From assembly GCA_032358255.1 (NCBI GenBank), contig JAULBX010006220.1, positions 61,973 through 125,972 on the forward strand: a stretch of 64,000 nt of DNA. Direction: 5' to 3'. Each line of letters begins with the position of its first letter. The stretch's first letter is position 1. Below are positions 6,965-56,000 of this stretch, piece after piece. Below the pieces are notes generated by a model that had not been told where the DNA came from, searched no databases, and saw only the letters and a list, made by a program, of their open reading frames with translations. A program made the translations under genes and the position numbers. This stretch comes from Heterotrichella gracilis (Eukaryota > Sar > Xanthophyceae > Tribonematales > Xanthonemataceae).

Positions 6965-9900
6965 TCAGGGTTTTTCTTGCTGCTCCCCTTGCGGCGCCAC
7001 ACCCACATCCCCCAGCAGCAGCCCACTCAGCGCCTCCCTGCGCTCCCAGTCGGGCAGCTCCCCCCAGTAGCTGTGCCCCACCTCCACCACCCGCCACCCA
7101 TGCACCTCCAGCAGCCGCCTGCGCAGCCTGGCTGCATCCGGTGAGGCGCCCATGGGCAGGTGGGGCTCATTCCGTGTGAGGTCATGTTCACCCAGCAGCA
7201 CCAGCGCGGTGTGGGGGATGGTTGGGAATGTGAAGCTGGCGGTGACCTCCCCGTGGACCAGGGGGGAGAGGGTGGCGGGGAGTGCTAGCGAGGCCAGGCA
7301 GGCGTGCACCGATTGGTGGAAGGGGTCCTGCTTCTGTAAGGGGACAAGGGGGGGGATATGTTGGAAATTTGGAAGGACTTATATTACGCCAAAGTGGAGG
7401 GCGAATGGCTAGGAAAGAAGACACATGCACCCCTTGAGTATACAATAAAGGTGCATACGCACCTGGGTACATAATCAAAGTCCATTTACGCCATTCTGGC
7501 AGTAAAATACACCCAAACAACGCCATCAATCACACGCTGCAGAGCCCACGAGCATGCAATGCATGATGCACCATCATCATTTCACCAAAACCAACCCAAT
7601 GTGACTATGCATACAGCCAATTACCACCGCTGCCCCGCCGCTCACCTGCCGCCTCTGGATCTCGCGCTGCCGCGCCACCCACACCTTCCTGCCCCTCTTA
7701 AACAAATCCTGGGTGGCGCTGCTCCAGAGCACGCAGCGGGGGCCCCCGCCCGATCCCGCAGGGCTGCTGCCATACACGCACGTGAGCAGGTGGAAGTTCT
7801 CAACCACGTGAGAGGGGACGGTACGCGTCGTCGCCAGGCGGGCCACCAACACCGGCAGCAGCGAGGCGCAGGCGCGGGCAGCGCGGGGGCTGTTGCTCCA
7901 CGGTTCGAGGATTGCAAGCACCTGCACGCGCAGAACAGTGATTTACATTTTTTTTATATTTTTAGTTTACGCCATGTGGGCGTTTCCTTTCTTTCTTTCT
8001 TAATATGAAACGTCACTTCCTGAATTCGTTCCAAGACAAGATGGTGGTCATGTCGTGCACACACTGGGCAATGCGCCAGGACTTTCATGAATCACCGATC
8101 TATTGGGATAAATTAAAAGTCTTCCTGACGCCAGCCGTGGGGAGGCTGACTGTGCGACTGCACTGGTGTGTGTGGCCAACTGCTTTAGCCACCCTGTGCA
8201 TGTGCGCCGGCAGGATGTATTTAATCAGTTACTTTTCCCGGTTGCACATTCCAATTCTGGAGGATAAGCTCAGCTGCCACTTTTAAAAATCATTCTCATT
8301 GTCAACAGCATATTATATACAAATGGACAGGTTGTGGGTGTGCGCAACATGTGCATCGAGTGCTCTTGTCAGAAGGGGAAGGCACGTACCTTCATTATGT
8401 CCCCCAGCGCATCAATGTCAAAGTGCTCGATGTGCGCCACCACCCAGTCCAGCGCCAGGTCCATGCAGGGCAGGGGGTAGTAATTGAACTCTGCAAACGA
8501 GGACAGCAGCGAGGCCACATGCTGGGGCAGGCAGTGCTCCTGGAGCCCCTGGCGCATCACCCCCGCTATGTGGTCAAGGTACATGCCCCCCGGGTGGTGG
8601 CCCACCGTGGCGAAGGCCGACAGTGTGTTGACCAGGCTGGGCAGGGTCATGGTGCGCAGGTGCGGCTCCAGCAGGTGGCTCATGTCATCGAAGAAATGGC
8701 TGCGGGGGGGGAGGGGGGTGCGGTTCGTGCATTGCACAGGAGGAAGAGGTGCACATGCACAGCCAACCTACTTGATCCCACCTCCCGTTTATTTTTTAAA
8801 CATGCCAGTGTGACGTGGACATGCACGTCCTAAGCTGCGGCACGCCCGGTATCCTGAGGGTGCAAACTTGTAACTTGCACGCAGTATGAATACGCTGCCA
8901 ACTACCCATTTGATGTATGCTTTGCTTGCTCAGGCAACACGCCAACAGTCAAGAGATGTCTTGGCTGGAAGGCCAAAGCCAACTTCTCAACATTTGCAAA
9001 GGGTCCACAGGGTTTGTCCCCACATCCCTGTGGGTGCGTGTGCTTAAGGTTTAGACATAAGGGTTCAGAGTTTGTCCCCACCTCTCCTGCAGGTGCGTGG
9101 GCAGGCCCATGTCCCTACTGGCCAGGCGCGCCATGCCGTGCAGGATGCGCGATGCCTCCTGCGGCGTGTAGCGCGCCTTCTTGGCAATCACAACCTCAGA
9201 CAGGGCGCGCAGCAGGGGCGGCCCGGACACAAACTCCAGCTTGCTCTGCAGCGAGGGATTAGGGTTAAGGGTTTGAGGATTAGGGTCAACTCGAGCTTGC
9301 TCTGCAGGGGGGGAGCGGGAGGATAGGGATCGGAGACAGGGGGCGGGAGAGGGTGGGATGACAGCAGTTTGGACTGGCTGGAAGGCTTGTTTAGGGTTTA
9401 GGATTTAGGGTTGTTGCCCACTTCTAATCTCCGCTGTCAGGTTTGCACTGGTGTGCAGCTCACAGCATCCGCATGGCCACTTTGTACGGTGTATATGGGG
9501 ACTCAAGGCATGCTTGGAACCAACGGCTGACGATGGGCAAGGTCAAACATGCAAGGTGGAAGGAGCATGCATGGATGGATGGCAGAGACACACTCCCCCC
9601 ATGCTACATGCATGCATATGGCACTCCCCCCCCAACCCCCCATGCCCGCGGCCCCCACCACCCCGCTCCCTCGCCACCCCACGCACCAGCGCCCACAAGC
9701 AGTTGCTGATCGACCGGGCATCAAAGTTCTGCACATGCGTGGACACCATGTTGCACAGGTCGAGCAGCAGCGGGCGCACAGCATCGGCAGCAACGGGGTC
9801 GCCCGCTCGCCGCGTCTCCAGATCCGCCAAGCGCCAGATGGCGGTAGCCACGTTCATTTCCCGGAACTGCGGGCCCTTGGTCTTGACGATGTCCTGTTGG

Positions 9901-11155
9901 AGGGAGGGGAGGCGTGGGTTGGCGATGGGGGTGGGCGCACTGCTGGGATGCATGAGTAGTTTTAAACCCTACACCCTACATACTATACCCTTGGTACGGT
10001 GCAGTGCTCGCCATGGGGTTGACATGGGGCTCATTGATGCCGTGTCCCATTGCCCACAAATGTGCATCAAATCCCCGGTGGAGACATACTTGGAACCAAC
10101 TTTAAGGCCCAGAATGCGTGACATCCATTGCCCAGCAAGCCGCAACAACAACCATGCTTGCACAGCTAGTGGCAATGCGCTACCGGGTGCGAATGGTACG
10201 GCACCTGTATTTTGGTCCAGTCCTGGGCGCGTAGTATCTCCCTGTTGAGCGCAACAGCGGTGCTTTCGGTCTTTGTCTGCAGGCCAACCCGCACACGGCG
10301 TCCCGCGCCTCGGGAGGTGACGTAACACTGCGATTGTTGGGCCCCGGGGAGGGAGACCAGGGGGGCAAGCAGCCTGTGGGGAGAGTGGCGGACGCATTGG
10401 TATGCGTGTGGGGCGGGGTTGGATGAGGGGCAGCATGGCCCCTTGGCAAACCAGGGCAGGCGTAAACCCAAACCTTGGAAGCGTGATGCAACCATGGTCA
10501 CCACGTTGCAGGTATCAGACCATTGGCCCAGTATGAACCAATGCCCACCACTTTAGTGTAGCTTGTGGGCTGTGTGCAAGTCACATTGAGCACAAGTGCA
10601 TGCCCCCGAAAATCCGGGTGGCGATCTGCTGTGCGCAATGTACCTGTGTGTCCTTCCATTAAGTAGCTCACCCAGTCCCAAAAACGCAGGTTTTGTACTG
10701 CTTGAAGCGCCACACGAGCAGGTATCCGCTGCAAGCACCCACAAATACAGTGTCAGGCAAACAACACTGTGTATGGAAGAAGATGGGGCCTGCCAACGAG
10801 AGCTGCAGGAGTTGCAAGGAGCGAATGGCCTGAGCTGACCAATAGCAAATGACGGCAACTATGAAGACACACTTGTGAAATATGGGCATTGTGAAGCTAA
10901 GGCGCCAGGTGAGGGGTGGTACCTGGCCACCACCTGTGACGTGTATGCATGCATATGCATATATGTTGCCGGCAGGAAAGGTTGCAAACGGTGGGTTGCA
11001 GGTGACGACACAAAACAAAATACAAGAGCTACCCTCTGTCGCTGCAAGCACTGCAGTGCACAGCGCACGCCCTGGGGGAGGTGGTGGCTAAGCAGCCCCT
11101 TACCGAAAGCGGGCACGAAGGCCTTGAGCGGTCCTAGCAGCGCTCTGTGTGCCAT
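6965..11155 (-). CDS. RAP-domain, octotricopeptide/FASTK-like organelle RNA protein (5' end unresolved)
   Basis: Supported minus-strand exons are 10373-10205, 9893-9687, 9245-9082, 8699-8390, 7921-7646 and 7333-6965, all joining in phase. A possible first exon at 11155-11104 (M-A-H-R-A-L-L-G-P-L, a transit-peptide-like start) needs at least one linking exon that I could not place. The middle carries helical repeat units typical of OPR/FASTK proteins, such as NVATAIWRLA and S-NCLWAL/SKLEF across a junction. The last exon encodes a RAP domain: V-L-L-G at a strand, then L-RRRLLE-HGW-VVEV-HSYW-EL. Proteins of this type act in chloroplasts or mitochondria, where they stabilise, process or activate single organelle transcripts; the target cannot be read from sequence. 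Two exon boundaries (near 9082 and 9245) are duplicated into the neighbouring introns together with telomere-like sequence. Confidence 0.8.
9009..9100. repeat. Duplicated 5' splice-site segment in the RAP gene
   Basis: The real exon end and donor (plus-strand bases about 9068-9100, donor at 9081) are imperfectly repeated at 9009-9040 inside the intron. Between the copies lies a degenerate TTTAGG-like stretch (about 9047-9067). On the minus strand both copies read as an exon-like end followed by GTGGGGACAAAC. Confidence 0.7.
9231..9311. repeat. Duplicated 3' splice-site segment in the RAP gene
   Basis: The acceptor and first exon bases (about 9231-9256, acceptor at 9246-9248) recur at 9287-9311, upstream in the intron on the minus strand. 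Both read TGCAG/AGCAAGCT-GAGTT. The 30 bases between them are degenerate telomere-type repeat (GGGATTAGGGTTAAGGG on plus). The upstream copy also has a full AG acceptor. Confidence 0.75.
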
Positions 11156-14504: not shown

Positions 14505-14900
14505 GGTGGGTGTCCAGGCACTGAGCTGCTGTTCCCGGTGGCCTAGTCAAAATAGTAGAAATTTAGACAGGTCAAAATGCTGGGTTCACAGGTGTACCGA
14601 GTGCAGCACCGGGTCACCGGCGAGGTCTATGCAGTCAAGCGCTCCCGGAGGTGCGCAAGGTCAAGTCAAAAGCGCCCCGAGAGAGGTGCATGCGCGTAGT
14701 GCTGGCAATGGCTGCCCTGCCCAGCCACCCAAACGTGGTGGGGCTGTACCGCGCGTGGCAGCAGGGAGGACACTTTTATATTCAGATGGACTACTGCAAG
14801 CAGGGCAGCCTCACCGACCTCCTGCAGCAGGTCCACCCACGTTGTCTGACACAGCTTGCGTGGGAGCCACGTCAGTTTGCTGCATGGCTGAAGGTGGCAG
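14505..14900 (+). pseudogene. Partial, frameshifted duplicate of WEE1 kinase exon 3 and flanking introns
   Basis: This segment aligns with 28991-29381 of the WEE1 gene in this window. It includes the intron before exon 3 (shared GTGGGTGTCCAGGCACTGAG), all of exon 3 and the first part of the next intron. Only one kinase exon is present, without the glycine-rich-loop exon or the catalytic exons. After the codons for AVKRS (about 14646) six bases replace one relative to the parent, a net +5 that shifts the frame. The donor equivalent at the exon end is GTCCAC instead of GTACAC. It cannot make a kinase. Its right end overlaps the last exon of the coiled-coil gene on the opposite strand. Confidence 0.93.
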
Positions 14901-17900
14901 TCAGCCCTGGACTGCCCCCCACTGACTGGCGCATGGATGATGTCCTGCTGAGCCTGTGCACATGTGTCAGCGGGGACCCGCCCTCCCCCTTGTCCCTCAG
15001 CGCAGCCTTGAGTGCACGCATCTCCTGGTACTGATCCTCCTCGCGCTGCTCAAGGTCAGCCACGTGCGCCTGTCACAGTGGCAATGGATGGTCAAAAGCA
15101 AATGAAAAGGAAACTTTTGAAAAGCCATGATGTCCCCTTTCTTTACGTTTCTTAGACAGTATAGAAACGAAAATGAAATGAACGCGGACGTACAATAAAT
15201 GAGCGACAGATGCTTTATATATTCATATCCAACATAAAATATTGGTGCATATTATTACATCAGTAGGCAAGAGGTCCCTAGTGCACACACGCAGTCCACA
15301 CCTGCATTGCCTCCAGCTCTCCCTTTGCCGCGTTCAGGCGCGTGGCCGCCTGGCGCCCCGCCAGCTCCGCGTCCTCGCGGCACCTCTCCACCTCCTGCTG
15401 CAGGCTGCTGCACCGGTCTGACTGGGCAGCAAGCTGAACCTGCATACACAGCACACACATCCGTAAATGCATGGTGAAACTTTCAACTAGGAACATTTTG
15501 CAGCAGCCACCACAATTGGGATTGGGGAGGAACTGTCATTGCGAGATACAATCAGTGGAAGGACATTCCCCAGCCTGGAGCTTATTTGGCCAGTGGCACG
15601 GTATGGCATCATGCGCAGTTCCACCCCATTTTTTGCTATTTCCATTCTACACAACGAAAATTTTTCTTTTATTTAATGCGCGCAAACAAGCATTTACATA
15701 CACGGGTTACCTGTAGCTGTGCAGCTGCTTGCGCCGCCTGCCGCGCCTCCCTGTCTGCCTGCGCCCCCAGCTCCGCAACTTCTGACTGGCACTGCTGTTG
15801 TAGCTCGGATACAGAAGTCTGCAGAACAGGGTAATTGCAGGTATCAGCTTGCCTGCAAATCCCGCCGTAACCACCAACCAGCAAATCGCCGCAATGGGCC
15901 TTTTAATGTAGACACTCCTTACCTCCAGCTCCACCAGCCTGGCCTTCAGGGGTCGCACCGCCTCCTCACGCGCCATGTCAGCGCACCGAATGCCCTCCGC
16001 CTTGCACTGCAGCACAGCGAAAATGGTGATAAGCCGTCAACCACACTCCAATGTGCATGTGCTGCAAGCACATCCTTTACAACATCACAGCAGCCTTGGT
16101 GTGACCGGCCTTCAGACACTCAACGGCGCACATGCATGCATCAGCTGCAATGGCAATCATTGTGGCTTGGCCATGCACACCCACCTGCTCCAGCCTGGCC
16201 AGGAGCGCATTGACCTGCTCCTGTAGGCCGTTCACCAGGGTTGCAGACTGCGCGCTGGCGGCACTGGCGCCACCCGACAGCTCCCCATTCAGCTGCTTCA
16301 GGTCGTCCACCACCCGGTTGGCGGCATGCAGGTCGGATGCGAGCTCGCTGCTCGTGTGCTGCAGCTCCTGGACGCGTGCATTGGTAGTGCCCAGCTCTGC
16401 CTCCAGGCCCGCATTCGCGCTGCGCAGCTGCTCAAGGTTGGCGCGCGTGGTGCTGAGGTCGGCTACCAGCTCGCTGTTGTGTTTGCTCAGCTGCGCAACC
16501 CTGTCGGACAGCTGCGATGCTTCGCTGGCCAACCGCTCATTGCTGGACTGCAGATGCTGCACCTACAAGGGATCGAGCTGAGTGAGCAGCCCTCACAGCG
16601 CCATTGGGTACATCATCAGGTAACCCATGCCATCAGTATGGTAATCACCACACCTTTTATACATGTGTACATGTGCATCCAGATCTGACGGTGGTAAATC
16701 TCACTTCCTGTGCTGGATTAGCATCATTTACTGATGTAATGAAAACGATATGACAGTTGTTCAAAAACAAAGCGTATATCAGTATATTCTCATGTGTATA
16801 TACATCTGTAAACATGTACTCCTTAAAAAATCAAAATGATTCCCCCATGTACCTGGTTGCGCAGCGCTGCCTCCACCTCGCTCTGTGCGGCTGTGCTTGC
16901 AGCTGCCCGCGCCTGCTGCTCTACCCGCAGCGCCGCCTGCGCCTCTACCAGTGCGTGCCGCCCCGACTCCGCGTGGCGCCCCACCTCATCTAGCCGCGTC
17001 TGCAGATCGCGCTGTGCTGTGCCCGCCTCCGCTGCCTGCTGGGTCAGCTGCGCCACCTGTCGCTCTAGGGAGCTGTTGCGCTCTGCCAGCTCGGAAGAAT
17101 GCTGGCCAAATGTGTGCATGTGCTGTGTGAGTGCCTGCATGTCACATGGGTGGTGTGCAGTCAGTTGACCACTGGCGATTATAGCTACAGCAACCTTGTC
17201 TACCACTGATGCCATTAATTCAGGCACCTGTGCTTTCTCCAGTCTGCCAGCAGCCCCACGCATCCAACCCAGCTGCGCAGGATGGCAAGCAGCGCTCACC
17301 TCTGCCAGCTGACGCAGTGCATCAGCAAACTCCTGTTGAGGTGGCGCAGAAGCTGTGAGGGCGGCCACCAGTTCCCAATCTACTGGTATATGCACTGCCA
17401 GGGCTGTCAAGATGGCCCCTACAGCCTCCCGCAGCCGCCATTGGCTGTCGCCATGCGCACCCGGTGAGGAGGGTGAGCGCTGCCCAGTTTGCAGGGGGAG
17501 CAGGGGGAAGGCAAAGTCAGGAGATGTTGGAGCCTGCAGGGCAAGAATGTCAAGGACTTGAAGCTCCAAGACTTAAGAGGTACCGTGCTGAGTCATAATA
17601 ACAGGGGTGTTAATATATAAAGGCTACGCTGGTTGGGACATTTAGGACGTTTATCAGACGATAGGGTTCCTAAATGTATGGTGTTTGGTAGGGTAGAGGG
17701 GGCAAAGGGGGTAGGTAAGCCAAGGGCCACATGGGCTGACTTACTCCAGCAGGACCTCAAGTCGCGTGGGATCAATAAGTGGTTCAAACAGTGCCAGGAA
17801 AGAGCTGCGTGGCGCCGCATGTGCAAGACCGACTGCTAATCTGGCTGTGTTGCTGGAATGCATGTAACTAACTAACAAATAGTATATAAACCTGGTTTAT

Positions 17901-20900
17901 ATATTAACACCCCTGATAATAGTGAATGGCACACAAAGGTCATCTTCACAAGCCGCAGGCGCAGCTCCCACCATTAAAGGGAAATTCTGCCATTTCAGAA
18001 TAAAATTGCTAAGTGCATATGATTTCAAATGAAATTGAAAAAATTTAATGGCAGATGTTTTGTAATTGAAACTGCGGTCACTTTTTGCTCATGTAGTGAT
18101 GTTTGTGCATTGCTGCATCCCACCTGCTTGCTTGGCATGGCCCCTTGCCCACCGCTTGGACCTGCTGTGGGGCTGCTAGCCAGGGATGCAGAGTAAGCAG
18201 AGTAAAAGCCAGGTGTGGCACCCGCTGCAATAGGTTTGGGGGGCGATGCAGAGCCTGGCGCCAGCATCTGGCGCTGGTTGTGCAGGGCTAGTTGCTGCGC
18301 CGCTGTGTGCACCTGAATCTGCAGCTGCTGTAGCTCCTGGCGCTTGACATGCACAGCCTGATCCAACTGCTGCAGCTCAGCCTGCACCTGGAAATTAAGT
18401 GACAGATGTAAACAAAATCAATGACAACATAATACAACAACAAAAACAGACCCCATAAGTCGGCTCGTCAACCTGTCAACCTTGGAATGCGGGGAAGCTT
18501 ATTCACAAGGGGCCCAGAGTGCGGAAAGCCCCTGTATACTCTTTCCAACACATTTCTCGTGTCAATTATTCAGCGCACAATGGCCTTCTAACCTATCTAG
18601 CCTATGGAATCCCAAAGAATACAATGTCTTGATATCCATGTGCTAGCAGCGTAATAACAAATGAGCTCGGCAAAGTTCTGCTTCATAGTACCTGTTGGAG
18701 CTCCACTGCCTGCTGCTGCTGAGTTTGCAGTGCGGTTCCACTCTGCTGTGCCACTTGGCGATAGTGCGCCATCTCCACCGCATGCATGCACTCAGCCTGG
18801 CCCTTGACGATGACACTCTCAGCTGCAATTGAGTACACAACTCAGACATCAGATTGCAGCTGCGCAACCATGAAGTAATGGTATCCACACACAGCATGCC
18901 ATGGGGCAATGGCGTGTTCTGTGCTTTCACAGCAGCAATGACAAGGGTTTTATTTCTGCAGCATCGTATGCATGTGGCACACCAGGGTTATGTACCTGCT
19001 GCTCTGAGCCGAGCGTGGTCTGCCTTGTGTGCAGCCACCTGCGCCTGCAAGCTGCTGCTGAAGCGCATGAGGCGCTGCTGCCATGCCTGGTTCAGGATAC
19101 GCTTCTCCTCTTGAAGCACTTCCACCTGCCGCTGCAGCGATGCGCTCTGGACCTAGACCAGTGCAAAATTGCAGGTTTCTGTCAGCCTGTGGGTGACGGA
19201 AGAGGTGTGCAGGGTTCATGAATCATTGCATTGACCATGTAGTATTCCTGAACATGGTTGTTTATAATCTGTGCGCTAACAGTGTATGGTCATCATTATA
19301 AGGTAATCAGTGTACGCATGTGCGGCCCACCTGGAGCTGTGTCATTGCTGCGCTGCGCTCTGCATCCACCTGTGCCGCCTGGGCCGCCTGCAGGGAGGTG
19401 GCGGTTGATACCTGCTGTGTCGTGCAGCCCACAATGGCCTCAGCATCCTTGCGGGCAACAGCCAACTGCCGCTGCAAGCGCTCAATGGTTTGCTGCTGCT
19501 CCTCTGACTCAGCAGCCGCCAATTTCTGGGTGCGAGCAGCCTGGCGTTGGGCGTCCTCCAACTGGTCAGTCAAGCCCTGGCCAATGAAATGTGAAGAAGG
19601 AAAGTGTGATATTGGTGTTAAAGTGGTTTATGTTTTATACACAATTTTTTTCCAACTCATATGATTCATTGTATATCGTGTATACCCTGAATTACAAATA
19701 TTACAATCCATGTAGGCCATGGTGCACATGCAACAGAAAGTGCACAGTATCTGGCGTGGCAACACCAAATGCAGAGATTTAAATTAACTGAGTGTTTACA
19801 GACAGCGTGAAGCATGTGCTCAGCATCATACCTGCACCATGGCCTGCTGACGCTTGGCAGCCACCTGGGAAGCCTGCAGCTCAGTGTTTGCCTGGTTGCG
19901 CGCTGCCTGTGCAGCATCCTTCTGGCTGCGGTGAGTATCCTCTAGCTGGCGCAGGCGGGACTGGTCCTGCAGGTTAAAAAACCAAACTTTTGTGTCATAG
20001 TCATAGTAATATAACATATATAAATCAGTGGAGAGCACGCCGAAAAGATAACATGATACACCATGTAATAACGACGTTGGCCCATGGCTTACTTGATTCT
20101 GAGCAGTCTGCAGGTCCTTGACTTGTAGCTGGGCGGCCTCCAATTGCTGCTGCGCACGCTTGGACACCTGCTGCAACTCATCTCGTTCCGTGCGCAGGCG
20201 TGCACTGACATCCTGGCCCTCCTCCATGGCACGCTGTAAAGCAAATAACACCGTGGGCTGCGCGACAACGCTGCACAATATGTTTACATTATTTTTGTTA
20301 AACTCAATATAAGAATCATTCTAAATGAGCCCGGGTTGGCTCCTCATGCCTCTCTCAAATTTGGTGTAACATAGAACAATTGCAAAACACAAATTATATA
20401 TGCCTTAGTATTACTCATTCGCATTCATCCATCGTGATCACGCATGAGCCATCAGGGATAACATGGCCTATGGCTCATGCCATACCTCCAGTACTAACAG
20501 ACCATAATATTTATTGTTATAACTGGGCTGATAACAAAATCCCAGCAACTAACGATGCATTTTGCTGCAATGGCCCCTGCACACCCATTGGACTCGTTGC
20601 CCTGACTGACCTTAAGCTTCTCCACCTCCCTGCGTGTTGCCTCCAGTGCCGTTGTTGCCTCTTCAGCAGCAGCTCGGTTGCGCCGCAGCTGCTCCGTGGC
20701 CTCAGCCAGTGCATCCCTGCCACGTGCCACCTCAGCGCGCAGCTCCTCCTCCCGCTGCCGCAGCTTGGTGGTCAGGCTCTGGATCTCAGCATCCTTGGTG
20801 TCCAGGCGCCAATGGAAGCTCTCCTCAACCTGCGCAAGCAGTGCACACGCTTTTCATCGCACGCAAGGTGTGTACACGACACACACATGATATCAAACTA

Positions 20901-34427: not shown

Positions 34428-34687
34428 CGTAAAGCGCCCACGCGCCCAGGCATCCTGCACTTTTCTCAGAGGCTTCCGCGTTGGCCGGTAAAATCGGCCC
34501 GTTTTGGGGAATTTTGCGTAAGGGCTTACTGTACTACGCGCTTCGAATTCCACGCTGCCGCGCTGCAACTCCAGTGGGAATGGTGCGAGTCTCGCTTACA
34601 AGCGCTGCCCGTTGTTATTGTTAACAGATTGGCCAACTGCTCGCACTAGTTGAACGACAGGCCGCAGAAGCATGTTCCACAAGGGCA
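33622..34687. repeat. Repeat family Y, two copies (33622-33854 and 34432-34687)
   Basis: Both copies start with AAGCGCCCACGCGCCCAGG or a close variant. They share GGCCGGTAAAATCGGCCCGTTT, CTGTACTACGCGCTT, GGGAATGGTGCGAGTCTCGCTT, ACAAGCGCTGCCCGTTGTTATT and a CAGAAGCATGTTCCACAAGGGCA end. Copy 2 directly follows X copy 3. Copy 1 is separated from X copy 1 by about 310 bp containing the telomere-like array. Confidence 0.82.
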
Positions 34688-44100: not shown

Positions 44101-47100
44101 GTCACACAACATACAGCTAGCATAGATGCTCATTAGCCCGCCCCATCCCCACATTATGAGAACATGATCCCGAGATTAAGAACTTGTATATGAGAACTCG
44201 GTCCCCACATGAGTCTGAGGACATGATCCTATCCCCGCAGTATGAGAACATGATCCCCACCGCTGCGCACTTCAACCCCATCATCCGCGCGGAGGGCATC
44301 GGCGGTGCGCTGAACGAGGCGGAGCGCCTGGTTGACTCCCTCATCACATCGCGCATGGTGCAGCCAACCATAGAGACCTTCAACGCGCTGCTGCAGGTGC
44401 GTGTTGGGACTGAGGTCGAGGGTTTAGGGTTTCGGATAGGGGACGTGTAATGCGCTGCTGCCGGTGGATGGAGGATGGTGGGTTGGGGTTTAGGAGACGC
44501 TCAATGGGTTGCTGCACTTTGCCGGTGATCATGACACATGTCGCTTCTTTTGAGCTTCGTATTCTGGCGCCATTGGTGAAGTTCTGGGCAAGAGGTCTTG
44601 ATTGCCATTGCGTGAAAGCAATGATTCACCGATGGTGCTACTGCTTGCTTGCTCATATTTTGATTAAATAGAAATGGGGATATGAAGGTGCTGCAACTTG
44701 ATGCGCTTTCGAATATATGGCTTATGGCTTTCTCTGATAGCGCCCTCAACTTGAAACCCTTGTCGCATGGGCAGGGGTACATCATCCACTCCGGCATCGG
44801 CGAGTATGGTGTTGAGGACAAGATGATCACCATCGGGGGGCGCATTGCCAGCGTGGGCCTGCGGCCAAATGTGCACACATTTGCGCTGTATGTGGAGGGC
44901 TTCCTTAAGGGGGAGTTGCTACAGGTGAGGAGCGCGGGTAGTTAACTTACAGCCACAGTTGCAATTGCCCAATCTTGCATGCAAAATACAAAGCTGCAAA
45001 AATTGATAGTTACGGTCTTCAGTTACAGGTGCATGTATGCCCCAGATGGGTGCGTACACCAATAGTGGCCACACGCCAGACCGCCTGTCTTTCACAAACC
45101 TCCCTCAAGCGCTAGCCCTAGGGGCCTGGACACCATTTAGGAAGTTTTTAACATCCCAGCTGCACATGTTTACACTTAAGCTTGACGACCAGCTTGTCCA
45201 TCTGGCTACCACAGCCATGGCACCGGTGAGTGTGCCCAGCCACTCTCCACACCCCCTTCAACCACACCCCCTTCAACCCACCCTCCTCCCCCCACCGGCC
45301 CGCAGGACGCCCTCAACGCCTTCTACCAGATGCGCACCGTGGGCATCCGCCAGGGCGGCGTGCGGGTGCTCGAGCACCGCGTCATGGTCCACCTGCTCAA
45401 CCTGCTTGCCCAGCAAGGCCAACCGGCAGACATGCTGCGGGTGCTTCGGGCCATGGAGATGGATGACGTGAAGCTGCCAAGGGATGCGCTGCTGCCAGGG
45501 GGGGAGGCGGAGGCGGAGGGAGGGGAGGTCGAGCAGCAGACGTGTGTCACGGCGTGGCTCAACAACAGGCTGGGGATCCTGCGCGCCAGGGCCAACCGCA
45601 TCCAGGGAGGTGAGGGTGCAGAATTGTTGAGCAATTGGCTGGGGTTCACATCTAGGAATGTGAGGGTGGAGGGGAAGGGGGGGGGACAAAAGGAGGGGGG
45701 TTGAGCCGGGGGGGGCACTCTGCTGTCTTGGTTGAGGGGAAGGACAAAGGCAAAGACCACGACCTAGTGCGTGTCACATGCCACACCTAGGAACGGCACT
45801 CGCCATCTGTGCCCCCCTTCCGCCACCCACCCGCATTGCACCCCATCGTCCAACCCCGTTTGCCCCCCTCCCCCGCAGGCAGCATGATCCAACAGCAGCT
45901 AGCGGCCCAGCAGGCATTCGAGGACGGGGCGGATGTCCCCGGGGAGAGCCCGATGGAGGACGTCGGGATTCGCGAAATCGACGGCATCCGGATCGGCATC
46001 GGCACCTGTGTGGTTGACGCCACTGGCATGGTGGTCCCCCCAAGCAAGCTCACAGTGAATGAGCTGCGGGTCGAGCTCAAGGCCAGGGGGCTGGTGGAGG
46101 AGGGCAACCGCAAGGAGCTGTACAAGCGGGTGCAGGTGAGGGGATGGGGGAGTTTGGATGGAGTGATTGACTCTAATCCGCACGCGGGACGGTGTAAATT
46201 GCAATGTGCTCGTGCATGGGACAATGGGGCAAATTTAGTTCAGTGTCCTGGAAAAAGCTGCCCTCCCCTCTCACACCAGCCCTCCACCCACCCTTAATGG
46301 ATCTAAAACACACAACTATCAGAAAAACAATGCTACTTTACTTCAAAAACATTAATTTTGTTGGTAAAAGACATAAAATCTTCCAATCCCCAGGCCGGCC
46401 GCAAGGCCATCCCCGCCGACCTGGTTGCGATGAACAGCGCAACCGTGCTGCCACATCAAAACACATTGTAGAAACTAGATCATGACAATATATTTCCAAT
46501 CCCCAGGCCGCCCGCAAGGCCATCCCCGCCGACCTGGTTGGGGACGAGAAGCGCAAGCGCGCCGCCAAGAAGGCCCAGGCTGTGCGCCGCAAGATCGCCA
46601 AGGGGGGAAGCGCCGATGACGGAGTGCAAGTGCGCGAGGCGGATGGGCGCAAGTCCAGCCGCAGCCCCACCATGGTGTACAGCTACCTGAATGGGGAGCT
46701 GGTGAGCCAATTAGAGGAGGTCACAGGGGAGGAGAAGGAAGAGGAGGAAGAGGATGACGATGATGACGAGCAGGTGGGTCTGGGGGGTGGGATGGGTGGG
46801 GGAGGGGAGGAAAGTAGGAGGAAAGCCGCACAGCCTGTCTTTAAATGAGCATTGGTTTAGGAATAGGGGAGGGAGGCAGTGACGTTTAGGGGCGAGGTTG
46901 GGAGCCACTTGGAGGGGGTACATGGGAGGAGAAGCAGGAGGGGGAGGAGCAGGAGGCTGGGGAGGACGGGAGGAGACGGTGTACATGTAGCTTACTGCAT
47001 GGCAACCCTCTAAGATGTTGGTGTTTGGGAATTTAGGTCAAGGGTTTCTTTGGTGGGGGCGCGCCATGCTTGCCGCATGGCAGCCCCGCGGCACGGGGCA

Positions 47101-48818
47101 CCCTACCAGTGGGTGCATATCCCAAACGCAAACACCGCACAGCGATGCACCTGGTTGTAGGCCCCGCCGCTGCACTGCAGGCGCAGCTCGCTGCAAATGC
47201 GGTCTCGGAGGACCGCCTCCCTTGATGCTTGAATGCTGATTCCATCGCCTTGGGGAGCGCCATCGGCGCAATTACCTCTTTGGTCTTACCCAGCAGGCAA
47301 CACTCAATAAAGTCTTGACACTTTTCGAAAAATAATATTATTATTCTTAAATACACAGAGGATCCAGGAATGTTTTCAACAGTCGAAAGGGAATCACCCA
47401 TGGCTCATTAGACTGGGTGAATTCTGTACGGTGTTAACCTCCATTTGTCTACTGTTCTGGTTAACAGGAATTTTCGAGACAGTCATGAGGGAGCCAACCC
47501 GTGCTCATTAGACTGTTAACACAGGTCCAATACCTCACAAATCTGCTAATTGTCCCAGGTCGCCGCGGAGCCCAAGCCCAAGGCGGCCTTTGTGGACGAC
47601 GACGCCATCTCCCCCGATGATGATGCAGCAGATGACGACATGCCGGTCATGCTGGCACCCGAGGGTGGCGACGAGACCCTAGCGGCGCTCAAGAACCGCA
47701 GGGCCCAGGTCGCGGTTCAGCAGCGGGAGGAGCTGAAGGACAACGCCAGTGCGGGTGTGAATGTGGCGCTGCAGATCATGCGCATGGTGGAGGGGTGCGG
47801 GGCGGCGCCCTCGGCGGCGGACCTGCTCATGCTGGCCAAGGTGGGTGGTGGTGGTGGGAGGGGGGTTGCCACTGAGGGGGCAGGGGGAAGGGGGTGTGGC
47901 TGAGCCTAGGATGGGTGTTGCCTACAGCATAAACCATGCGTTATTTGAGAAGATGCCATTTGCGGGCATCATCTGCAACTTGGAGATCACAAGCGGTAAT
48001 TGCCATTGCCGATTCATGTATGGATGTTGAAGACAAGCTGGAATGAGGGTTTAGACTATGATATCTAATTTGCAATATCATTTAATGGCAAACATAGTTT
48101 TATTGAAGTTTTTGGCACTCAATATATAATCAATGTAATATTTCACAAATTTCATGTATCAATCACCATTTTCGTGGAGTTTGTTCTACACTGACGGGCT
48201 TCCTGTATTCATGTCCCCCAGGCCACGGAAGCTGAGAAGAATGTGTCGGCTGCCTGGAACCTGGTGAAGCGCTTTGCGAGCAAGGGGGCGGGGGAGGTGG
48301 AGGTGTACGGAGAGGAGACAGTGACCTACCTGCTCAACCTGTGCACGCGCGCGGTCCTGGATGGTGAGCAGATACCCAGTTTTTGATGTTGCGCATCGTC
48401 GATGCGCGCCCCTGCTTGAGCCTGCGGCACAGCCACACCTCTGACACCCCCACACACACATGATGCAGTACGCACCCCTCCATCTCCTGACCTTCAAGTT
48501 TCAAACCCTTAATTCAAAACCCTAAACCCTTTGACATGTGCCTCTGGCCCACCACACCCCATGAACTGACCCCTCCCCCCCTCCCCTGCAGCGCACGAGA
48601 CCACCATGGCCCTAGAGTTCCTAATGGACGCCGAGGGTCTTGGCCTGACCCTAGAAGCCGAGCTGCAGCGCGAGGTGATGGCCAGGGTGGAGGAGGAGGA
48701 AGGGGCCAAGGCTGCTGCAGCGCTTGGTGGGGGGGCCAAGGGGAGGGGGGCACAGGGACCGGAGCCTGAAGGGGCGCAAGAGGAGAGCGGCGTGCAAGAA
48801 CCTGCAACGGCTGCATGA
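41120..48818 (+). CDS. PTAC3: pTAC3-like plastid transcription protein (PPR repeats + SAP domain), complete
   Basis: Fifteen exons: 41120-41318, 41577-41627, 41919-42060, 42254-42432, 43157-43359, 43757-43858, 44241-44396, 44775-44924, 45160-45225, 45306-45609, 45879-46135, 46507-46773, 47559-47840, 48222-48363 and 48592-48818. They total 2727 nt, or 908 residues, close to the length of plant pTAC3. The N-terminus is Ser/Thr/Arg-rich with few acids, as in a chloroplast transit peptide. Exons 4-8 encode PPR-type helix pairs (for example AEDILQDMVDAGLAPG-RAYHGVI and EAVFASMRRAGLPP). Exon 11 holds a SAP DNA-binding motif (KLTVNELRVELKARGL-E-GNRKELYKRV). Acidic stretches follow in exons 12-13. 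Plant pTAC3 associates with the plastid-encoded RNA polymerase. Exon 9 is short and the least certain. Several exon edges are duplicated into introns. Confidence 0.9.
43326..43532. repeat. Exon-5 donor segment of pTAC3 repeated four times with telomere-like spacers
   Basis: The exon end CAGTACGTCACGCGAGGCC-TGCAG/GTGGGG (to 43359) recurs at 43406-43429, then more truncated at about 43473-43486 and 43508-43529. Each copy is followed by a donor-like GTG. Between copies lie GGGTTTAGGG-type stretches. The first intronic copy is preceded by TTCAG, so it forms a 24-bp in-frame block with acceptor and donor. Confidence 0.85.
44378..44526. repeat. Exon-7 donor segment of pTAC3 with intronic copies
   Basis: The exon end AACGCGCTGCTGCAG/GTGCG (to 44396) is echoed at about 44447-44466 (AATGCGCTGCTGCCG/GTGG) and more weakly at 44498-44526 (CAATGGGTTGCTGC...CCG/GTG). 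GGGTTTAGGGTTT lies between the first two. Confidence 0.6.
46383..46550. repeat. Duplicated acceptor and exon-12 start in pTAC3
   Basis: CCAATCCCCAG/GCCGSCCGCAAGGCCATC and the following CCCGCCGACCTGGTTG occur twice, at 46383-46432 and 46495-46547. The second copy opens exon 12. The first has an intact AG acceptor but runs into a TAG after 25 codons with no donor before it, so I read it as intronic. Confidence 0.85.
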
Positions 48819-49534
48819 TGTGTGCAGCTGATGGCAGCGGGGCAGTTTTGACAAGCGGGGTGTCATTGTACCTTGGCATGCAGGGTGTATACGTAGGCAT
48901 GCCTGATGTGCAGCTGATGGCACTTTGACCAGCGGCTTCTCCAATCCACTCCATCAATGTTAAAGGATCCTCAGGCATGTTGTGCCAGTGAATACTGATT
49001 CTAGGAGTGTGCAATTTTTCATTACGTATTGCTAGTGGCATTGTGAGGTCTGGGGACCAGCAAGCATTGAGTTGGGACAACCGCTAGGCGTTAGTAATAC
49101 TATCAGACACAAGCATCACCACATGTCATGGCGTTGCGGTGTCGCTGTATATATCTACAAGTTGATCCGTCACGCTACTGTAGCAACTTATAACAAGGAA
49201 AGTTTCACCATACTACGGGTTTGCCCCACAACTACTGTAATTAACTCACGAGTAGATCTTAGTTTGCGCAGCATTGCCAATACCCAACCCGCGTTGAATA
49301 AATGATATCACATATATGGCGTTCAACAACTCGTAATTACGACTTGTTTATAAACTCGTGATCAATGATGACATCAATCACTGCCAGAGGCGGTAGGCTG
49401 GCTCATCAGAGAGTCTCACTCTTGTCCCGTCCGTGAACAGGGGCGTACCTCAAAACTGAATGCTGAGAAGAAGAAGAAAGAAAAGTGGCCAAAGGCGTAA
49501 ATGCTGAATTGTTTTTTCAGGTGAATTGTATCCA

Positions 49535-49650
49535 ATCAGGGCGGCCCCTCAGCCAGCCAGTCCCCCCAGGGTTCCCCCCCATTCCCTTAGGTGGCCAGCG
49601 CCAGCAGGCCTAAACCCTAAACCCTAAACAGCAGCGCTGTCACAGTTGCG
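49535..49650. repeat. Dispersed copy of dynein-gene 3' sequence interrupted by telomere repeats
   Basis: This stretch matches 52775-52862 and the dynein terminus at 53029-53060: GGCGGCCC-TCAG, a C-rich run, then AGGTGGCCAGCGCCAGCAG. There it is broken by about 22 bases of (CCCTAAA)n (49609-49629) before resuming with CAGCAGCGCTGT. Confidence 0.8.
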
Positions 49651-49663
49651 CTGTCACAACGGT

Positions 49664-52036: not shown

Positions 52037-53028
52037 CCACGTGAACACCACCAACAAGTCTGACCTAGCTAGGCGCGCTTGGTCTATTCACAGCTGCCAA
52101 GGCCTGTGCCAGGCAATTACTTCCCAATAGTTCCATTGTACAGCGCACGTGCGACTTATTTCCCATTGCACTCCAGGATGCGTGAGTGAATGTACTACGC
52201 TGATCAGAAACGTCCTGACACAAAATTTTATTGTCACAAATCCCAAACAGAATACTTTTCGCTTGGCAGTTTGACTGCCGCTGTCATACACTAGGGAAAC
52301 TGTGTTTCCTTTCATCTTCTGTGTGCTTTGTTTCATTTCTTTGTTGGCTGTGCAGCCAGTTTGTAGCTTGTTGTAGTTGTAGCCTAGTGTAGCCTCTAGA
52401 GACAGCAGTTCATAGGTATCGATAGGTATGGGTACATTGCCCCGCCCCAATAGCTTTTCCACCACCGTGTTCTGTGGCAGGGTAGCTCAACTTAGGTAGA
52501 CTCAGTCTGACAATTTGCAGTGGCAACAGTGGCAATAGCATTCACTGTGACTCTGATGTACATGGCTACACACGCCTGAGGTGTGACTGATAAGACCCCG
52601 AACAGTAATGGTCCACTACCATCGGCCTGCGTTGCTTGACTAAACGCCAGTGGCATTGCTTGCTGTAACCATGTAGCACACACCACACTCAAGGGTACAG
52701 TAGCAGGCAAAATCAAGTACTGCTATGCTATCTAATGTGCGTGCTTATCATGATACCTATTCACATTGAAGAAAGGCGGCCCGTCAGTTAGCCACGGGCA
52801 ACCTCGCCCCCAATCCCCACCCCGGAGGTTGCCAGCGCCAGCAGCAGCGCTGTGCCCCGCATGAGTTAACACGCGAACTACTGGCACTTTAAACAATAAA
52901 AAAATATCTCCCGCACATATCCCCCTTCAGGTGGCCAGAGCCAGCAGCAGCACTGTGCCCCGCATGAGTTAGCATGTAAATTATTTGCATTTTAAACAAT
53001 AAACAAAATCTCCCGCGCATATCCCCCC
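52037..53028. other. Convergent spacer with two extra copies of the dynein 3' end
   Basis: About 1 kb should hold the 3' UTRs of the unknown gene and dynein. Its right end (52826-53028) contains two tandem copies of the dynein C-terminal coding end plus flanking A-rich sequence. The rest has no recognisable feature. Confidence 0.6.
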
Positions 53029-53060
53029 TCAGGTGGCCAGCGCCAGCAGCAGCGCTGTGC
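52826..53060. repeat. Three tandem copies of the dynein terminal-exon end, unit about 100 bp
   Basis: GGTKGCCAGMGCCAGCAGCAGCRCTGTGCCCCGCATGA occurs at about 52828, 52930 and 53033. The third is the real end of the dynein coding sequence. The intervening parts also match (TTTAAACAATAAA, then ATCTCCCGC-CATATCCCCC). The duplication therefore spans the stop codon and the start of the 3' UTR. Confidence 0.92.
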
Positions 53061-56000
53061 CCCGCATGACCCAGTGGTCCGGCTCCCTCCCGCCCGCCGC
53101 CAGCTCCACCATGGTCTGCAGGCTGGGCCGCTCCCGCGTACCGGTGCGCAGCGGGTACAGGTACAGCGGGCAGGCGTAGGTGGTGGGGTGGGCGCGGTGG
53201 TGGTGGCTGGGTCGCTCCACTGGGCGGAAGTGCAGGATGGGCATGGGGGTGAGGAGCTGCATGGGCTGGGGCTCGCACAGGCAGGCGTTGGCGGGGTCCC
53301 ACCCAGCGCCCTCAAGGTGCAGGCCCTGCGTGGTAAGGATTTAGGGTTTAGGGTTTTTGATGATAGGGTATGGGTGCACGTGATCGCATGAGGGCAGATG
53401 TTTTCTGCGCTGCACTATACGCTGCATTATTGCTGCGCTTTAATATACTTACTGACGCATCTTAATTTGGTGAACTCCTCTACGGTGACATGGCACAATG
53501 TTTTTTCTTTACTGATTTTGTCCATGGGGGCTATGCGTAGTTGCTATGCCGCCTATGCACGGTTTTGACATTTCTTTTTCTTTTCCAATGCTGTGCCCAC
53601 CTTGACGTACACCCCCTCGGCCGGCCCCTCCTCAATCTCCTCCTCCCGCTGCGCCACCACGTGGAACTCGAAGCACAGCCCATCCACCGCCACGCCGCTG
53701 CGCCTCGCTGCAGTCTGGAGCACCGCCGTGAGGAAGGCTGTGGGGTATGTAAACACAGACAGGTCGTACACGCGGGGGTAGGTTGAGGTGGCCCATGTGC
53801 GCAGCACTGCCAGGCGCCGCACCAGGTCGGCTGCCCATGCGTTGAGCGGCTTGAGGGAGGGGTAGGCGCGTTGCCAGGTGGAGGGAACCTGTGCAGGCCG
53901 AGGTGTGTGGCTGAGTCAGCCGCAACAGCGCACATGGCAGGGGACGCAGTGGGCAGAGGAGTAATCCTCCTTGGTGTCCTACTTTTCCTCAACCACCACC
54001 CGTTCCATGTCCTGCTTCATCAGTTAAGTTGAGGCCTTAGGGTCAAGGGTTTAGGGTTTGTGTTTCACCTTGTTGCTGAGCAGCGCCTCCGCCACCCTGT
54101 CCATGCCCTGCCTTGGGCTCACGGTACAGGGATAGGGTTTAGGGTTCACCATGTTGTTGCAAAGCGCCTCCGCCACCCTGTCCATGCCCTGCCTAGGGTT
54201 AAGGGTTTGAGGTTTGGGGTTTAGGCTTTAGGGTTCACCTTGTTGTTGCGCAGCGCCTCCGCCACCTTGTCCATGTCCTGCCTAGGGTTGAGGGTTTGAG
54301 GTTTGGGGTTTCGGGTTTAGGGTTCACCTTGTTGTTGCGCAGCGCCTCGGCCACCCTGTCCATGTCCTGGCTCATGACCACCAGACCCTGCAGGCCCCGC
54401 GCCACCTCCCCGCAGGCGCGCCCAACCTCCGCCAGCAGCGCGTTGTATCGCTCCAGCTCCTGCATAAGCACCGTGTGCAGGGCGGAGGGGTCCCCGGCCT
54501 TGGCGCAGGCCACGGCGGGCAGGTCGAAGGGGGCGGGAAGCTGCACCGAAAAGGAAAGAGGTCAGGGGAGTGTGCAGGTAGCCGGATACAGTGCGTGCCT
54601 TCTGGAATGGCCATTGCTTGGAAGCCCTTCAAACGTTTTGCCAATTGTGTGCACCAGCAGCTGCAATGTGAGTGTCTTTTATGGCTAGCAATGTAAGTTC
54701 TCGTACTCTTGCATTTGGCTGCGTAGTAAATGTTGACACAATAACTATTAAATTTCACCTGCTTCAGTAGCTCCCCGGTAATGCCCAGCACGCCATCCTC
54801 CTTGCCTCCCGCCGCGCCCGCCACCACCTGCTGGGGCTGCAGCGACGTCAGGCAGTCGAGCAGCAGGTTGGTATCCTCGATCTGGTACGAGATCTCGGCA
54901 TTAGGATGCTGCCCAAACGCCTCGGGCTTATCAATCCCAGGGAGCACAGCGATGAAATCCCTGAACTGCGCCAAGGTGGTGGCATCGGGGATGTGGTACT
55001 GGGGCAGCGGTGAGAGCGGGAAGTTTGGTGTGGTGATGGCTGCCTCGCAGTAGAGCTGGTTGAGGTAGGAGTTGAGCACCCGCCGGTCCAGCTCGTCTGT
55101 CACCCTGCCCCCGTAGTTTGCTTCAGCGATGAGGTACTTGAGTGCGCGCCAGGGTGTGTCGTGGTAGCTGTCCAGGTAGGACTTGAGCAGGTCGTCGGAG
55201 ACCTGGGTGTGAGGGATGCAATTATTGGACATATATGAAACTGTTACTATAATTAAAAATGGACATTCTACTTTGTTTTCTAAGATGAATGACATTTGCC
55301 TAAACCCCCATGGATCAATAATTTGTTTGATATTCGACAGATGTTTCTAATTTGATTAAATGCGTAATGCTTGGCTGTGGTATATAGAACGGTGTATAGT
55401 AGCGCCAATGTGTACTCTGAGCACTATAATATTATTTATCCATATGTTCGTCAATAAACACAAGAGATGATGGGTTTACCTTGAAGTCGGTATCATTGAA
55501 ATCATATGGGATATTCAGCCCCAGCGTCCTGAACTTGCGGCGTTCCAGCAGCACCGCATGGAAGTACGCCAGTGCAAACACCAGGCGCCGGTACTTGGTC
55601 TGGGCGCGGCACTCTGCAAACTCAGTGTCGCTGATGCTGTTGTACAGCCGCAGCAGGTTGGCACGAAGACCCTGCAACCCAACATGGCCATGTAAGCACT
55701 TATATTGCCACCATGGAGACGCTCTGTGCATCACATCAGTCAATGGCACTGGGGGTGACCATTCAAAATCGGCTTGCTGCTGATGTCATGTGGGAGTCAC
55801 TCAATGCCGACCTTTAAATTTACAAAGAAAAAGGGTATAAATAAACTAAAGAAAATATTTTAAAAAAGGTTATATATTCATAAACTTTACATAATTTAGT
55901 GCCTAACTAAATGGAATACGTTAGATTTTGGGGATGAAAGTATTTCTTTATGCTGCGCTTGTGAATGACGTGGGCATGCGCGAATGGGACCAGTATGCAA

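Follow-up and report, generated by a model that had tools for sequence, protein, structure and literature searches.

What copies the ends of introns, and what brings telomere-like sequence between the copies? The original prediction held that, in at least four unrelated genes (RAP, PIG-T, pTAC3, and dynein), a short segment covering a splice site is repeated inside the intron, in most cases around degenerate TTTAGGG repeats, as if breaks at splice sites were repaired by local duplication and telomere addition. All counts given here refer to one 64-kb window, the whole stretch of DNA analyzed, and to a reference set of 184 curated exon/intron junctions. A gapped duplication search retained pair clusters with a score of at least 15 and copies at most 300 bp apart, telomere tracts being masked; several clusters may belong to one event. 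Duplications were called clear when the score was at least 17 and the second copy lay inside the adjoining intron, and weak at a score of 15. Telomere tracts were called at a score of at least 11, and order-3 shuffled windows served as the null for both tracts and duplications. We assumed that TTTAGGG, the ancestral telomere unit in green algae (PMC8226300), is the telomere unit of the host.

The gapped search returned 41 local pair clusters compared to 2–6 in five order-3 shuffles, and an ungapped search after masking gave 41 pairs compared to none in two shuffles. Among the 184 junctions, 8 clear and 2 weak cases showed a border copied into the adjoining intron. The clear cases are four donors, at 54327 (dynein), 43359 (pTAC3), 36460 (PIG-T), and 9081 (RAP), and four acceptors, at 46506 and 44240 (pTAC3), 38809 (PIG-T), and 9245 (RAP); the weak ones are donors 44396 and 45609, both with a score of 15. 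Donor 38497, which has a score-18 match, was left out of the count because its second copy sits in an exon. As predicted, all four named genes carry border copies, and both junction types are hit. At 54327, 43359, 38809, 9245, 9081, and 44396, the copies are separated by telomere-like sequence, so that the predicted “most cases” amounts to 6/10 (5/8 of the clear ones); none lies between those at 36460, 46506, 44240, and 45609 (4/10). The copies are about 20–80 bp long, all ten adjoin the same border that they duplicate, and, judged by eye, they appear mostly to retain GT or AG. The main offsets between copies number seven (56, 70, 85, 86, 89, 102, and 113), and only one is a multiple of 3, so using the copies as the predicted spare splice sites would usually break the frame.

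In pTAC3, junctions 43359 and 43858 are supported by gapless homology in a PPR alignment. At the donor of junction 43359/43360, the original (43334–43366, + strand) is identical over 33/33 positions to the next copy, detected by the ungapped search at 43404–43436 (+). Shorter third and fourth copies follow at 43470–43532 (+) with a short telomere run between them (7-mers at 43496–43502), and two tracts called by tract score occupy 43363–43384 and 43433–43466 (both +). The spacings between copies are 70, 57, and about 42 bp, and such unequal values fit repeated events better than one tandem array. The first tract is already 14% off a perfect repeat while the copies flanking it are identical over 33 bp, which means that the filler was not a fresh perfect repeat and argues against plain telomerase synthesis. 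At donor 43858, a tract (43863–43888, +) lies 4 bp into the intron, and the gapped search found no duplication of this donor. Acceptor 44240 has copies at 44142–44171 (27/30) and 44212–44229 with no tract between (whole region 44142–44257, +). Donor 44396 has a degenerate copy at 44436–44466 (region 44370–44466, +; score 15, 24/30) with a tract at 44419–44435 between, a weak case. The other weak copy, of donor 45609 (45599–45621), lies at 45649–45671 (+; score 15, 19/23), and that of acceptor 46506 (46484–46567) at 46370–46453 (+; score 38), both without a tract. A further tract (48503–48530, − strand) lies 61 bp upstream of acceptor 48591, where the gapped search found no duplication.

The dynein donor shows a more regular arrangement. 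Its original (54325–54372, −), whose junction 54327/54328 is gapless against 8glv_Co, has full copies at 54236–54282, 54147–54193, and 54066–54112 and a cut-off copy at 53993–54015 (together 53993–54282, −). Four tracts fill the spaces, at 54283–54324, 54194–54235, 54115–54146, and 54028–54065 (54028–54324, +), so that the original and each full copy are followed by one tract, indicating that the tract predates the tandem expansion. In the three full exon copies, 7 changed codons are nonsynonymous and 4 synonymous, matching what is expected of neutral DNA. Another tract (53336–53375, +) lies 10 bp upstream of dynein acceptor 53325/53326, with no duplication in the gapped search. Intron gain by AGGT tandem duplication was considered at dynein 54327 and pTAC3 43359 and rejected, since joining the outermost copy to the distant acceptor gives the gapless match to homologs.

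In the RAP gene, the donor region at junction 9081/9082 (9074–9102, −; score 17, or 47/56 in a longer gapped alignment) and its intronic copy from the gapped search (9016–9043, −) flank a degenerate TTTAGGG tract (9044–9073, +; score 12.5, 23% diverged). The RAP acceptor at junction 9245/9246 (9232–9251, −) matches its intronic copy (9288–9307, −; ungapped and gapped searches) at 24/27 positions, with a tract reading CCCTAAA in sense between them (9254–9286, +; score 20.5). A second tract in the same intron (9389–9412, +) has no flanking border copy in the gapped search. The PIG-T donor at junction 36460/36461 (36439–36492, −) matches its copy (36337–36388, −; self-BLAST and gapped search) at 43/52 positions without a tract between. 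In the 5' part of PIG-T, the acceptor at junction 38809/38810 (38784–38817, −), whose exon falls outside the Gpi16 match, and its copy from the gapped search (38871–38902, −) agree at 30/32 positions around a tract (38832–38870, +; score 21). At 38809 and 9245, the tract is confined to the space between the copies, which is what insertion with target duplication predicts. Border duplications thus occur in four genes, and tracts in five; the fifth, presumably a WEE1-like kinase gene from its translation, has a tract (29451–29471, −) 22 bp upstream of an acceptor, with no border duplication in the gapped search.

Are the tracts more than chance? The window contains 18 TTTAGGG tracts compared to 0, 0, 0, 0, 0, 0, 2, 0, 0, and 1 in ten order-3 shuffles, and the remaining 19 7-mer units with identical composition give 1–12 each. 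Curated introns hold 15, against a mean of 0.27 (maximum 2) in 100 simulated intron sets with separate border and interior composition. The tracts are therefore short, non-terminal arrays of the telomere unit beyond chance, and they fit the definition of short interstitial telomeric sequences. Their position is also biased: in curated introns, 9/10 tract events are at most 25 bp from a junction, where 1.94 would be expected (P = 2.0e-6), and 6/10 when the farthest tract of each cluster is used instead (P = 0.005). Same-composition units (4/24 near a junction, 4.97 expected) and 150 random unrelated 7-mer units (17/92, 19.5 expected) served as controls and lacked this bias. Telomere k-mers are thus enriched near splice sites within the window, as anticipated. 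Introns with a border duplication contain tracts in 7/10 cases, compared to 3/82 of the introns lacking one (Fisher 1.5e-6; within-gene permutation P = 9e-4). In the coiled-coil gene, none of the 18 curated introns has a tract. As a side observation from a control gone wrong, homopolymer runs are also found near junctions (5/8, 1.24 expected), which may mean that borders attract simple sequence of any kind.

The border preference is demonstrated for the tracts; for the duplications it is not secure. We counted 8 border duplications and 2–3 interior ones, with binomial P anywhere between 3e-5 and 0.30 as the count and the null are varied; the null border shares (0.21, 0.34, 0.43, and 0.60) are our own geometric estimates, based on how long introns are on average and how long the duplicated unit is. 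A weak test with raw probes scoring at least 20 gave 6/184 at junctions, 51/2436 in intron interiors (border copies included), 13/1938 in exon interiors, and 25/2047 elsewhere. Stop codons were duplicated twice, both times without a telomere tract. Three copies of the end of the dynein CDS, each comprising 12 codons, the stop region, and the 3' flank, lie at 52824–53069 (−), with the stop placed from alignment, and the pTAC3 stop region is duplicated at 48809–48858 and 48896–48935 (+; score 18), where the frame was extended by hand and the gene finder spliced differently. The process is therefore not specific to splice sites. Of the predicted break repair with telomere addition at splice sites, the closeness of tracts to junctions, their association with border duplications, and one insertion of telomere repeats with a small target duplication are supported; preferential breakage at splice sites is not established.

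These data could be read as two ordinary processes that overlap, with duplications arising anywhere by slippage or unequal exchange and telomere-like repeats carried along as a general intron component. Border-straddling duplications would then stay visible longer because their exon half is conserved in the original, and geometry together with this slower decay could explain much of the border excess: with 82-bp units, our own geometry gives an expected border share of about 0.6 and P = 0.17 for 8/10. The stop-codon duplications and others in intergenic DNA agree with this reading, and dynein 54327 and RAP 9081 resemble true tandem units that include the tract. It leaves unexplained, however, why tracts lie so close to junctions, and why they are found exclusively between the copies at 38809 and 9245. 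We consider it rather unlikely.

It is also opposed by one locus at which an insertion can be seen directly. A short, stray duplicate of the end of the dynein CDS at 49584–49640 (+) is interrupted at 49608 by 21 bp, nearly three CCCTAAA units, together with a 3-bp CAG target duplication. Compared to its empty sister copy at 53026–53058, it shows 32/33 matches around one 24-bp gap. Telomere repeats were thus inserted here, at 49584–49640 only, in one step and with a small target duplication. At the break, a single base on one side is in register with the insert (49608–49628; by eye, single locus). No empty counterpart of the other 17 tracts appeared among the self-BLAST and gapped pair matches.

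The orientation of the tracts raises another explanation, namely that selection keeps them near splice sites, CCCTAAA providing a C-rich tract and a branch-point-like CTAAAC before acceptors and TTTAGGG providing G-runs after donors. Polarity agrees with the G-rich strand in only 8/10 tract events: in curated introns, all 5/5 acceptor-side events read CCCTAAA in sense and 3/5 donor-side events TTTAGGG. Tract-free introns likewise have G-runs after donors and C-runs before acceptors, GGG reaching 26.8 per kb after donors compared to 15.7 mid-intron and CCC 26.4 before acceptors compared to 13.2. Against selection, 2/5 donor-side tracts (9044 and 54028–54324) have the opposite polarity, and an uncurated acceptor-side tract at 9963 reads TTTAGGG in sense. 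CTAAA and CTAAC give 2 and 0 hits before acceptors, without clear enrichment (CTRAY 5.1 per kb compared to 3.5 mid-intron), and the intronic tracts are 4–23% diverged from a perfect repeat. Such selection seems improbable to us.

Only 3–4 intron bases separate the donor from the tract at 43363, 43863, and 54324, as would be expected if tracts mark the birth of introns: telomere filler and a target duplication would have entered an AG|GT-like site, and later growth from inside would have left the tract close to one of its ends. Precedents for intron gain through break repair and direct repeats are given in passages of two studies (PMC4202315, PMC3443670). This scenario predicts, however, that the upstream exon end is repeated at the far 3' end of the intron, and the ten border copies adjoin the same border instead. 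One pair does link the two ends of one intron (38345/38484), at a score of 15, a level that shuffles reach. We give intron birth little credence. Least credible of all are introner-like mobile introns built of telomere repeats. Similar tracts do recur in the introns of five genes, but self-BLAST showed no family sequence in common beyond the 7-mers, and in the self-BLAST and gapped pair matches the duplicated parts, the stray dynein fragment at 49584 excepted, are private to each gene. Within the window, no families of similar whole introns came to light, self-BLAST returning one dispersed intronic pair (17766/60306) that lacks telomere repeats.

We slightly favor the reading that copies and tracts were left by DNA breaks repeatedly repaired within or next to intron ends, with local copying and telomere filler. 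A break near an exon/intron border would be healed by end joining; fill-in of the ends, or their renewed copying from the border sequence alongside, would leave a direct repeat at the site. Either telomerase or the copying of telomere-like DNA already present could supply the degenerate TTTAGGG filler. That tracts sit at borders is plausibly due to the border G-runs and C-runs, which tract-free introns also have and which could offer short homology in register with the filler. Some events may later have grown by ordinary tandem duplication, as in dynein with its unit of about 89 bp. The extra copies would lengthen the intron and, as the dynein changes suggest, probably decay neutrally; they would be tolerated, since the intact donor or acceptor farthest out maintains correct splicing.

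A bolder and doubtful extension is that, across the genome of this algal lineage, splice junctions attract telomere insertions or selection retains them there, the polarity of G-runs and C-runs offering a foothold for telomerase or telomere-derived filler. The chromosome-end machinery would then repeatedly give rise to intron growth, to decoy splice sites, and perhaps to splicing signals. The origin of intron sequence and the cause of intron lengthening are largely unexplained. If the border preference holds genome-wide, a recognizable filler would mark intron repair events and make intron growth datable. The effect of intronic telomere repeats on splicing, which the authors of PMC7215372 left as an open test in the part of their text on this point, could also be examined in an organism that offers many cases naturally.

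Both break repair and telomere insertion are already known; their meeting at splice junctions is not described in the titles and abstracts of the matches listed. Introner elements carry splice-site target duplications at both intron ends; here the ten border copies stay at one border, and one pair at the level of shuffles (38345/38484) spans both. In the relevant passages on AGGT tandem duplication (PMC3443670), intron gain likewise yields new potential splice sites; here, by contrast, one and the same border is copied and the intron continues to a separate partner exon. Polymerase-theta end joining in Caenorhabditis elegans, as described in passages of PMC4490562, leaves inserts with exact matches near the break, and our border copies likewise match nearby sequence; those passages have no telomere filler, and the word “intron” is absent.

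Rogers and Bendich (2025) report, in the sections concerned, 4–30 bp direct repeats at or near intron borders and ascribe them to insertion and break repair (PMC11782384). They compare 5' with 3' borders, whereas we set each border against the intron it belongs to. Their text has “telomer” two times, one of them in a cited telomerase paper's title. In Daphnia, according to the main text of PMC4202315, direct repeats inside introns exceed chance (55/90 new introns) and are read as repeated staggered breaks that lengthen introns. Both of our pair searches likewise find such repeats beyond chance, but that main text lacks the word telomere, and our copies, about 20–80 bp, lie beside the same border. 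Telo boxes in Arabidopsis and rice are single telomere motifs spread across genes, for which telomerase action at free 3' ends was proposed (PMC3022908, main text); 5' UTRs have more of them than expected and introns slightly fewer, and “splic” does not occur in that main text.

Short interstitial telomeric sequences of rodents, primates, and horse, as treated in passages of PMC2246262 and PMC7215372, were inserted at double-strand breaks. They show target duplication at 4.6% of rodent and 16% of primate loci and complex local rearrangement at some, and the intron share of the human ones, 31%, fits random insertion. The tracts described here resemble them as short internal telomere arrays, probably inserted at breaks and sometimes with target duplication. 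In contrast to them, they hug splice junctions and co-occur with border duplications.

The self-trained gene finder placed intron-rich genes on both strands of the 64-kb window (G+C 53%). At the right end lies a dynein heavy chain whose best match by far is the inner-arm I1 beta chain of 8glv, a Chlamydomonas axoneme structure (836 bits vs 594 for the next match). A search of viral contigs for relatives gave one match, IMG/VR contig L001, which combines a phage terminase-like part with an intronless dynein heavy-chain coding part; it is probably a chimeric assembly and was set aside, and the phage label is our own reading. The PPR gene, in which a SAP domain was found, matches the plastid-transcription protein pTAC3/PAP1 (8xzv_H, E 4e-33), although designed PPR proteins outscore 8xzv_H. 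In the PIG-T gene (minus strand, 35-39 kb) part of a Gpi16/PIG-T domain was recognised (7e-14); the RAP gene (7-10 kb) gave a weak RAP match of 6e-4, under Pfam's cut-off. Taken together, these genes point to a flagellate green alga as the probable source.

To define junctions, 105 of 275 predicted exons were retained, giving 92 curated introns and 184 junctions. Exons below 45 bp, those whose coding score fell under 2 (a limit waived for dynein) and 15 named by hand were removed, as were genes 5 and 11, both ends of gene 8 and the part of pTAC3 preceding exon position 41900. By hand we also shifted two borders, the RAP donor to 9686/9687 and the pTAC3 acceptor to 44775/44776. For dynein we used the gene finder's exon start, 53910; the acceptor implied by homology lies about 20 bp further inside the exon. 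Spliced without its border copies, the dynein protein aligns gaplessly over the exon end of which the intron contains four further copies, and the alignment of the pTAC3 PPR array shows no insert over junctions 43359 and 43858. Junction 44396 is less sure, with a six-residue gap just beyond it in the alignment to designed PPR proteins. Support for the RAP and PIG-T borders comes from reading frame and from partial family matches, which leaves them less certain than 44396, and the exon at 38809 falls outside the Gpi16 match of the PIG-T gene.

A cyclic alignment scan of the window detected 18 degenerate TTTAGGG/CCCTAAA tracts, 15 of them scoring at least 14. Ten order-3 shuffles yielded 0, 0, 0, 0, 0, 0, 2, 0, 0 and 1 tracts, none reaching 14. 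For each of the remaining 19 7-mer classes with this composition, 1-12 tracts were counted (0-4 at a score of at least 14). The curated introns contain 15 tracts, compared with 0.27 on average and at most 2 in any of 100 simulated sets in which donor-side, middle and acceptor-side composition were modelled separately. The tracts differ from a perfect repeat by 0-23% edits, and the only perfect one is 49609-49629.

After merging the tracts of each cluster, 13 events were left, 10 of them in curated introns from five genes. The three outside curated introns (9963-9991, 33417-33458 and 49609-49629) were omitted from the distance test; the first of these would sit about 20 bp from an acceptor. Nearest tract-junction distances for the ten events were 8, 8, 22, 22, 3, 4, 22, 61, 10 and 3 bp, so that nine lie within 25 bp of a junction where 1.94 were expected (P 2.0e-6). 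When the farthest tract of each cluster was used instead, the count was 6/10 (P 0.005). Control units showed no such bias, with 4 of 24 near junctions for the 19 same-composition units (4.97 expected) and 17 of 92 for 150 random 7-mer units (19.5 expected). Homopolymer runs were near junctions in 5 of 8 cases (1.24 expected), indicating that such runs partly share the junction bias. Co-option of the tracts as branch points was rejected, as neither CTAAA nor CTAAC was clearly enriched.

To find local duplications, 40-bp probes taken along the entire window were compared with the 300 bp on each side, telomere tracts being masked. The gapped scan gave 41 pair clusters scoring at least 15 vs 2-6 per shuffle in five order-3 shuffles, and the ungapped scan 41 pairs vs 0 in two shuffles. 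A clear copy in the junction's own intron was found at 8 of the 184 junctions, namely donors 54327, 43359, 36460 and 9081 and acceptors 46506, 44240, 38809 and 9245, with two further weak copies at donors 44396 and 45609. Border copies on both donor and acceptor sides, in the RAP, PIG-T, pTAC3 and dynein genes, had been noted beforehand and were recovered. At donor 38497 a match scoring 18 was left out of the count because its second copy falls in the exon. Stop codons were duplicated as well in dynein (three copies) and pTAC3 (48809/48896, frame read by hand). Two pairs are intron-interior (42689/42804 and 47373/47471), one copies an exon interior into an intron (46693/46891), and 57689/57987 (score 16), beside acceptor 57687, is ambiguous. 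Six clusters, spread over five places, are either intergenic or unassigned; the remainder comprises exon-exon pairs, pairs at noise level that touch a junction, and extra pairs of the same events.

Other repeats were seen in the window. The intergenic region 32999-34687 contains direct duplications, degenerate and spaced by about 0.8-1.1 kb, and the window's top-scoring tract, 33417-33458, lies inside it. A 399-bp pair, 14505-14903 and 28993-29386, is 90% identical, and both members encode one kinase-like stretch; it seems that a fragment of this kinase gene, which we take to be WEE1-like, was copied to a site 14 kb upstream (14505-14903). A 114-bp pair, 17766-17879 and 60306-60419 (89% identical, same orientation), lies in introns of two different minus-strand genes and is a dispersed intronic repeat, possibly SINE- or introner-like. 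Introners as a source of the border copies are disfavoured by self-BLAST of the window.

Tracts and duplications occur together. When weak cases are counted, 10 introns have a border duplication, and 7 of them contain a tract vs 3 of the 82 without (Fisher 1.5e-6); the co-occurrence persists in a within-gene permutation (P 9e-4). Telomere-like sequence had been noted between the copies in most cases; it lies there in six of the ten border duplications but not in four, and at 44240 the tract is at the opposite end of the intron. Both stop-codon duplications lack a tract. The coiled-coil gene (14872-23862), with 18 curated introns, contains neither a tract nor any of the ten border duplications; the phenomenon is therefore patchy among neighbouring genes.

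The original prediction also placed breaks and repair at or near splice sites. A border preference of the duplications is not established: border duplications made up 8/10, 8/11 or 10/13 of border and interior cases, with P from 3e-5 to 0.30 across nulls. This range turns on unit length (visible match or copy spacing) and on whether the decay rate is halved for copies that match conserved exon, and the expected border shares are our own geometric estimate. The count omits exon-exon and intergenic pairs, junction 38497, the two stop-codon pairs and 57689/57987. Probes scoring at least 20 numbered 6/184 at junctions vs 51/2436 in intron interiors, a weak contrast in which the interior includes the copies. 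Intron gain through AGGT was rejected, since the copies sit on the wrong side of both borders that were checked.

Of the seven main offsets of the copies, which are putative spare splice sites, only one is a multiple of three. The dynein copies carry 7 non-synonymous and 4 synonymous codon changes (1, 6 and 4 at codon positions 1, 2 and 3) and change like neutral sequence. These changes, and aligned homologs without an insert, led us to reject the gene finder's proposal of three functional 39-bp mini-exons there.

The clearest mechanistic clue lies outside introns. Segment 49584-49640 is a stray copy of the dynein CDS end, matching 53026-53058 at 32/33 bases around a single 24-bp gap, which consists of 21 bp (nearly three CCCTAAA units) and one extra CAG. 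It is a filled site with an empty sister and a 3-bp target duplication. At acceptors 38809 and 9245 the tract is solely between the copies, as insertion with target duplication would leave it. At pTAC3 43359 copies and spacers are unequal, as repeated events would make them, and dynein 54327 and RAP 9081 appear to be tandem units with the tract already inside. Since the tract at 43363-43384 is already 14% off perfect between flanking copies identical over 33 bp, the filler is probably not a fresh telomerase product in every case; degenerate telomere-like DNA could have been copied instead.

Across the window, tract-free introns have donor-side G-runs and acceptor-side C-runs at nearly twice the mid-intron density. 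In those of at least 150 bp, GGG reaches 26.8 vs 15.7 per kb mid-intron (bases 7-58 past donors) and CCC 26.4 vs 13.2 (bases 60-9 ahead of acceptors). Tract polarity fits this G-after-donor, C-before-acceptor pattern in 8 of 10 events, small numbers that would suit either in-register homology at insertion or selection for splicing signals.

Telomere filler linked to splice junctions appears neither in the cited passages of the works compared here nor in titles or abstracts among the matches listed, a scope mostly outside the subscription literature. The link is observed in this one window, and its component processes are all known. The passages cited describe telomere-repeat insertion by break repair (PMC2246262, PMC7215372), new introns whose internal direct repeats are ascribed to staggered breaks (PMC4202315), direct repeats close to splice sites (PMC11782384), telo boxes within plant genes (PMC3022908) and templated inserts (PMC4490562); passages on introners (PMC9860276), an intron-gain review (PMC3443670), PMC3596301 and PMC8226300 served as further comparison. 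In its target duplication, 49584-49640 resembles some mammalian break-repair insertions.
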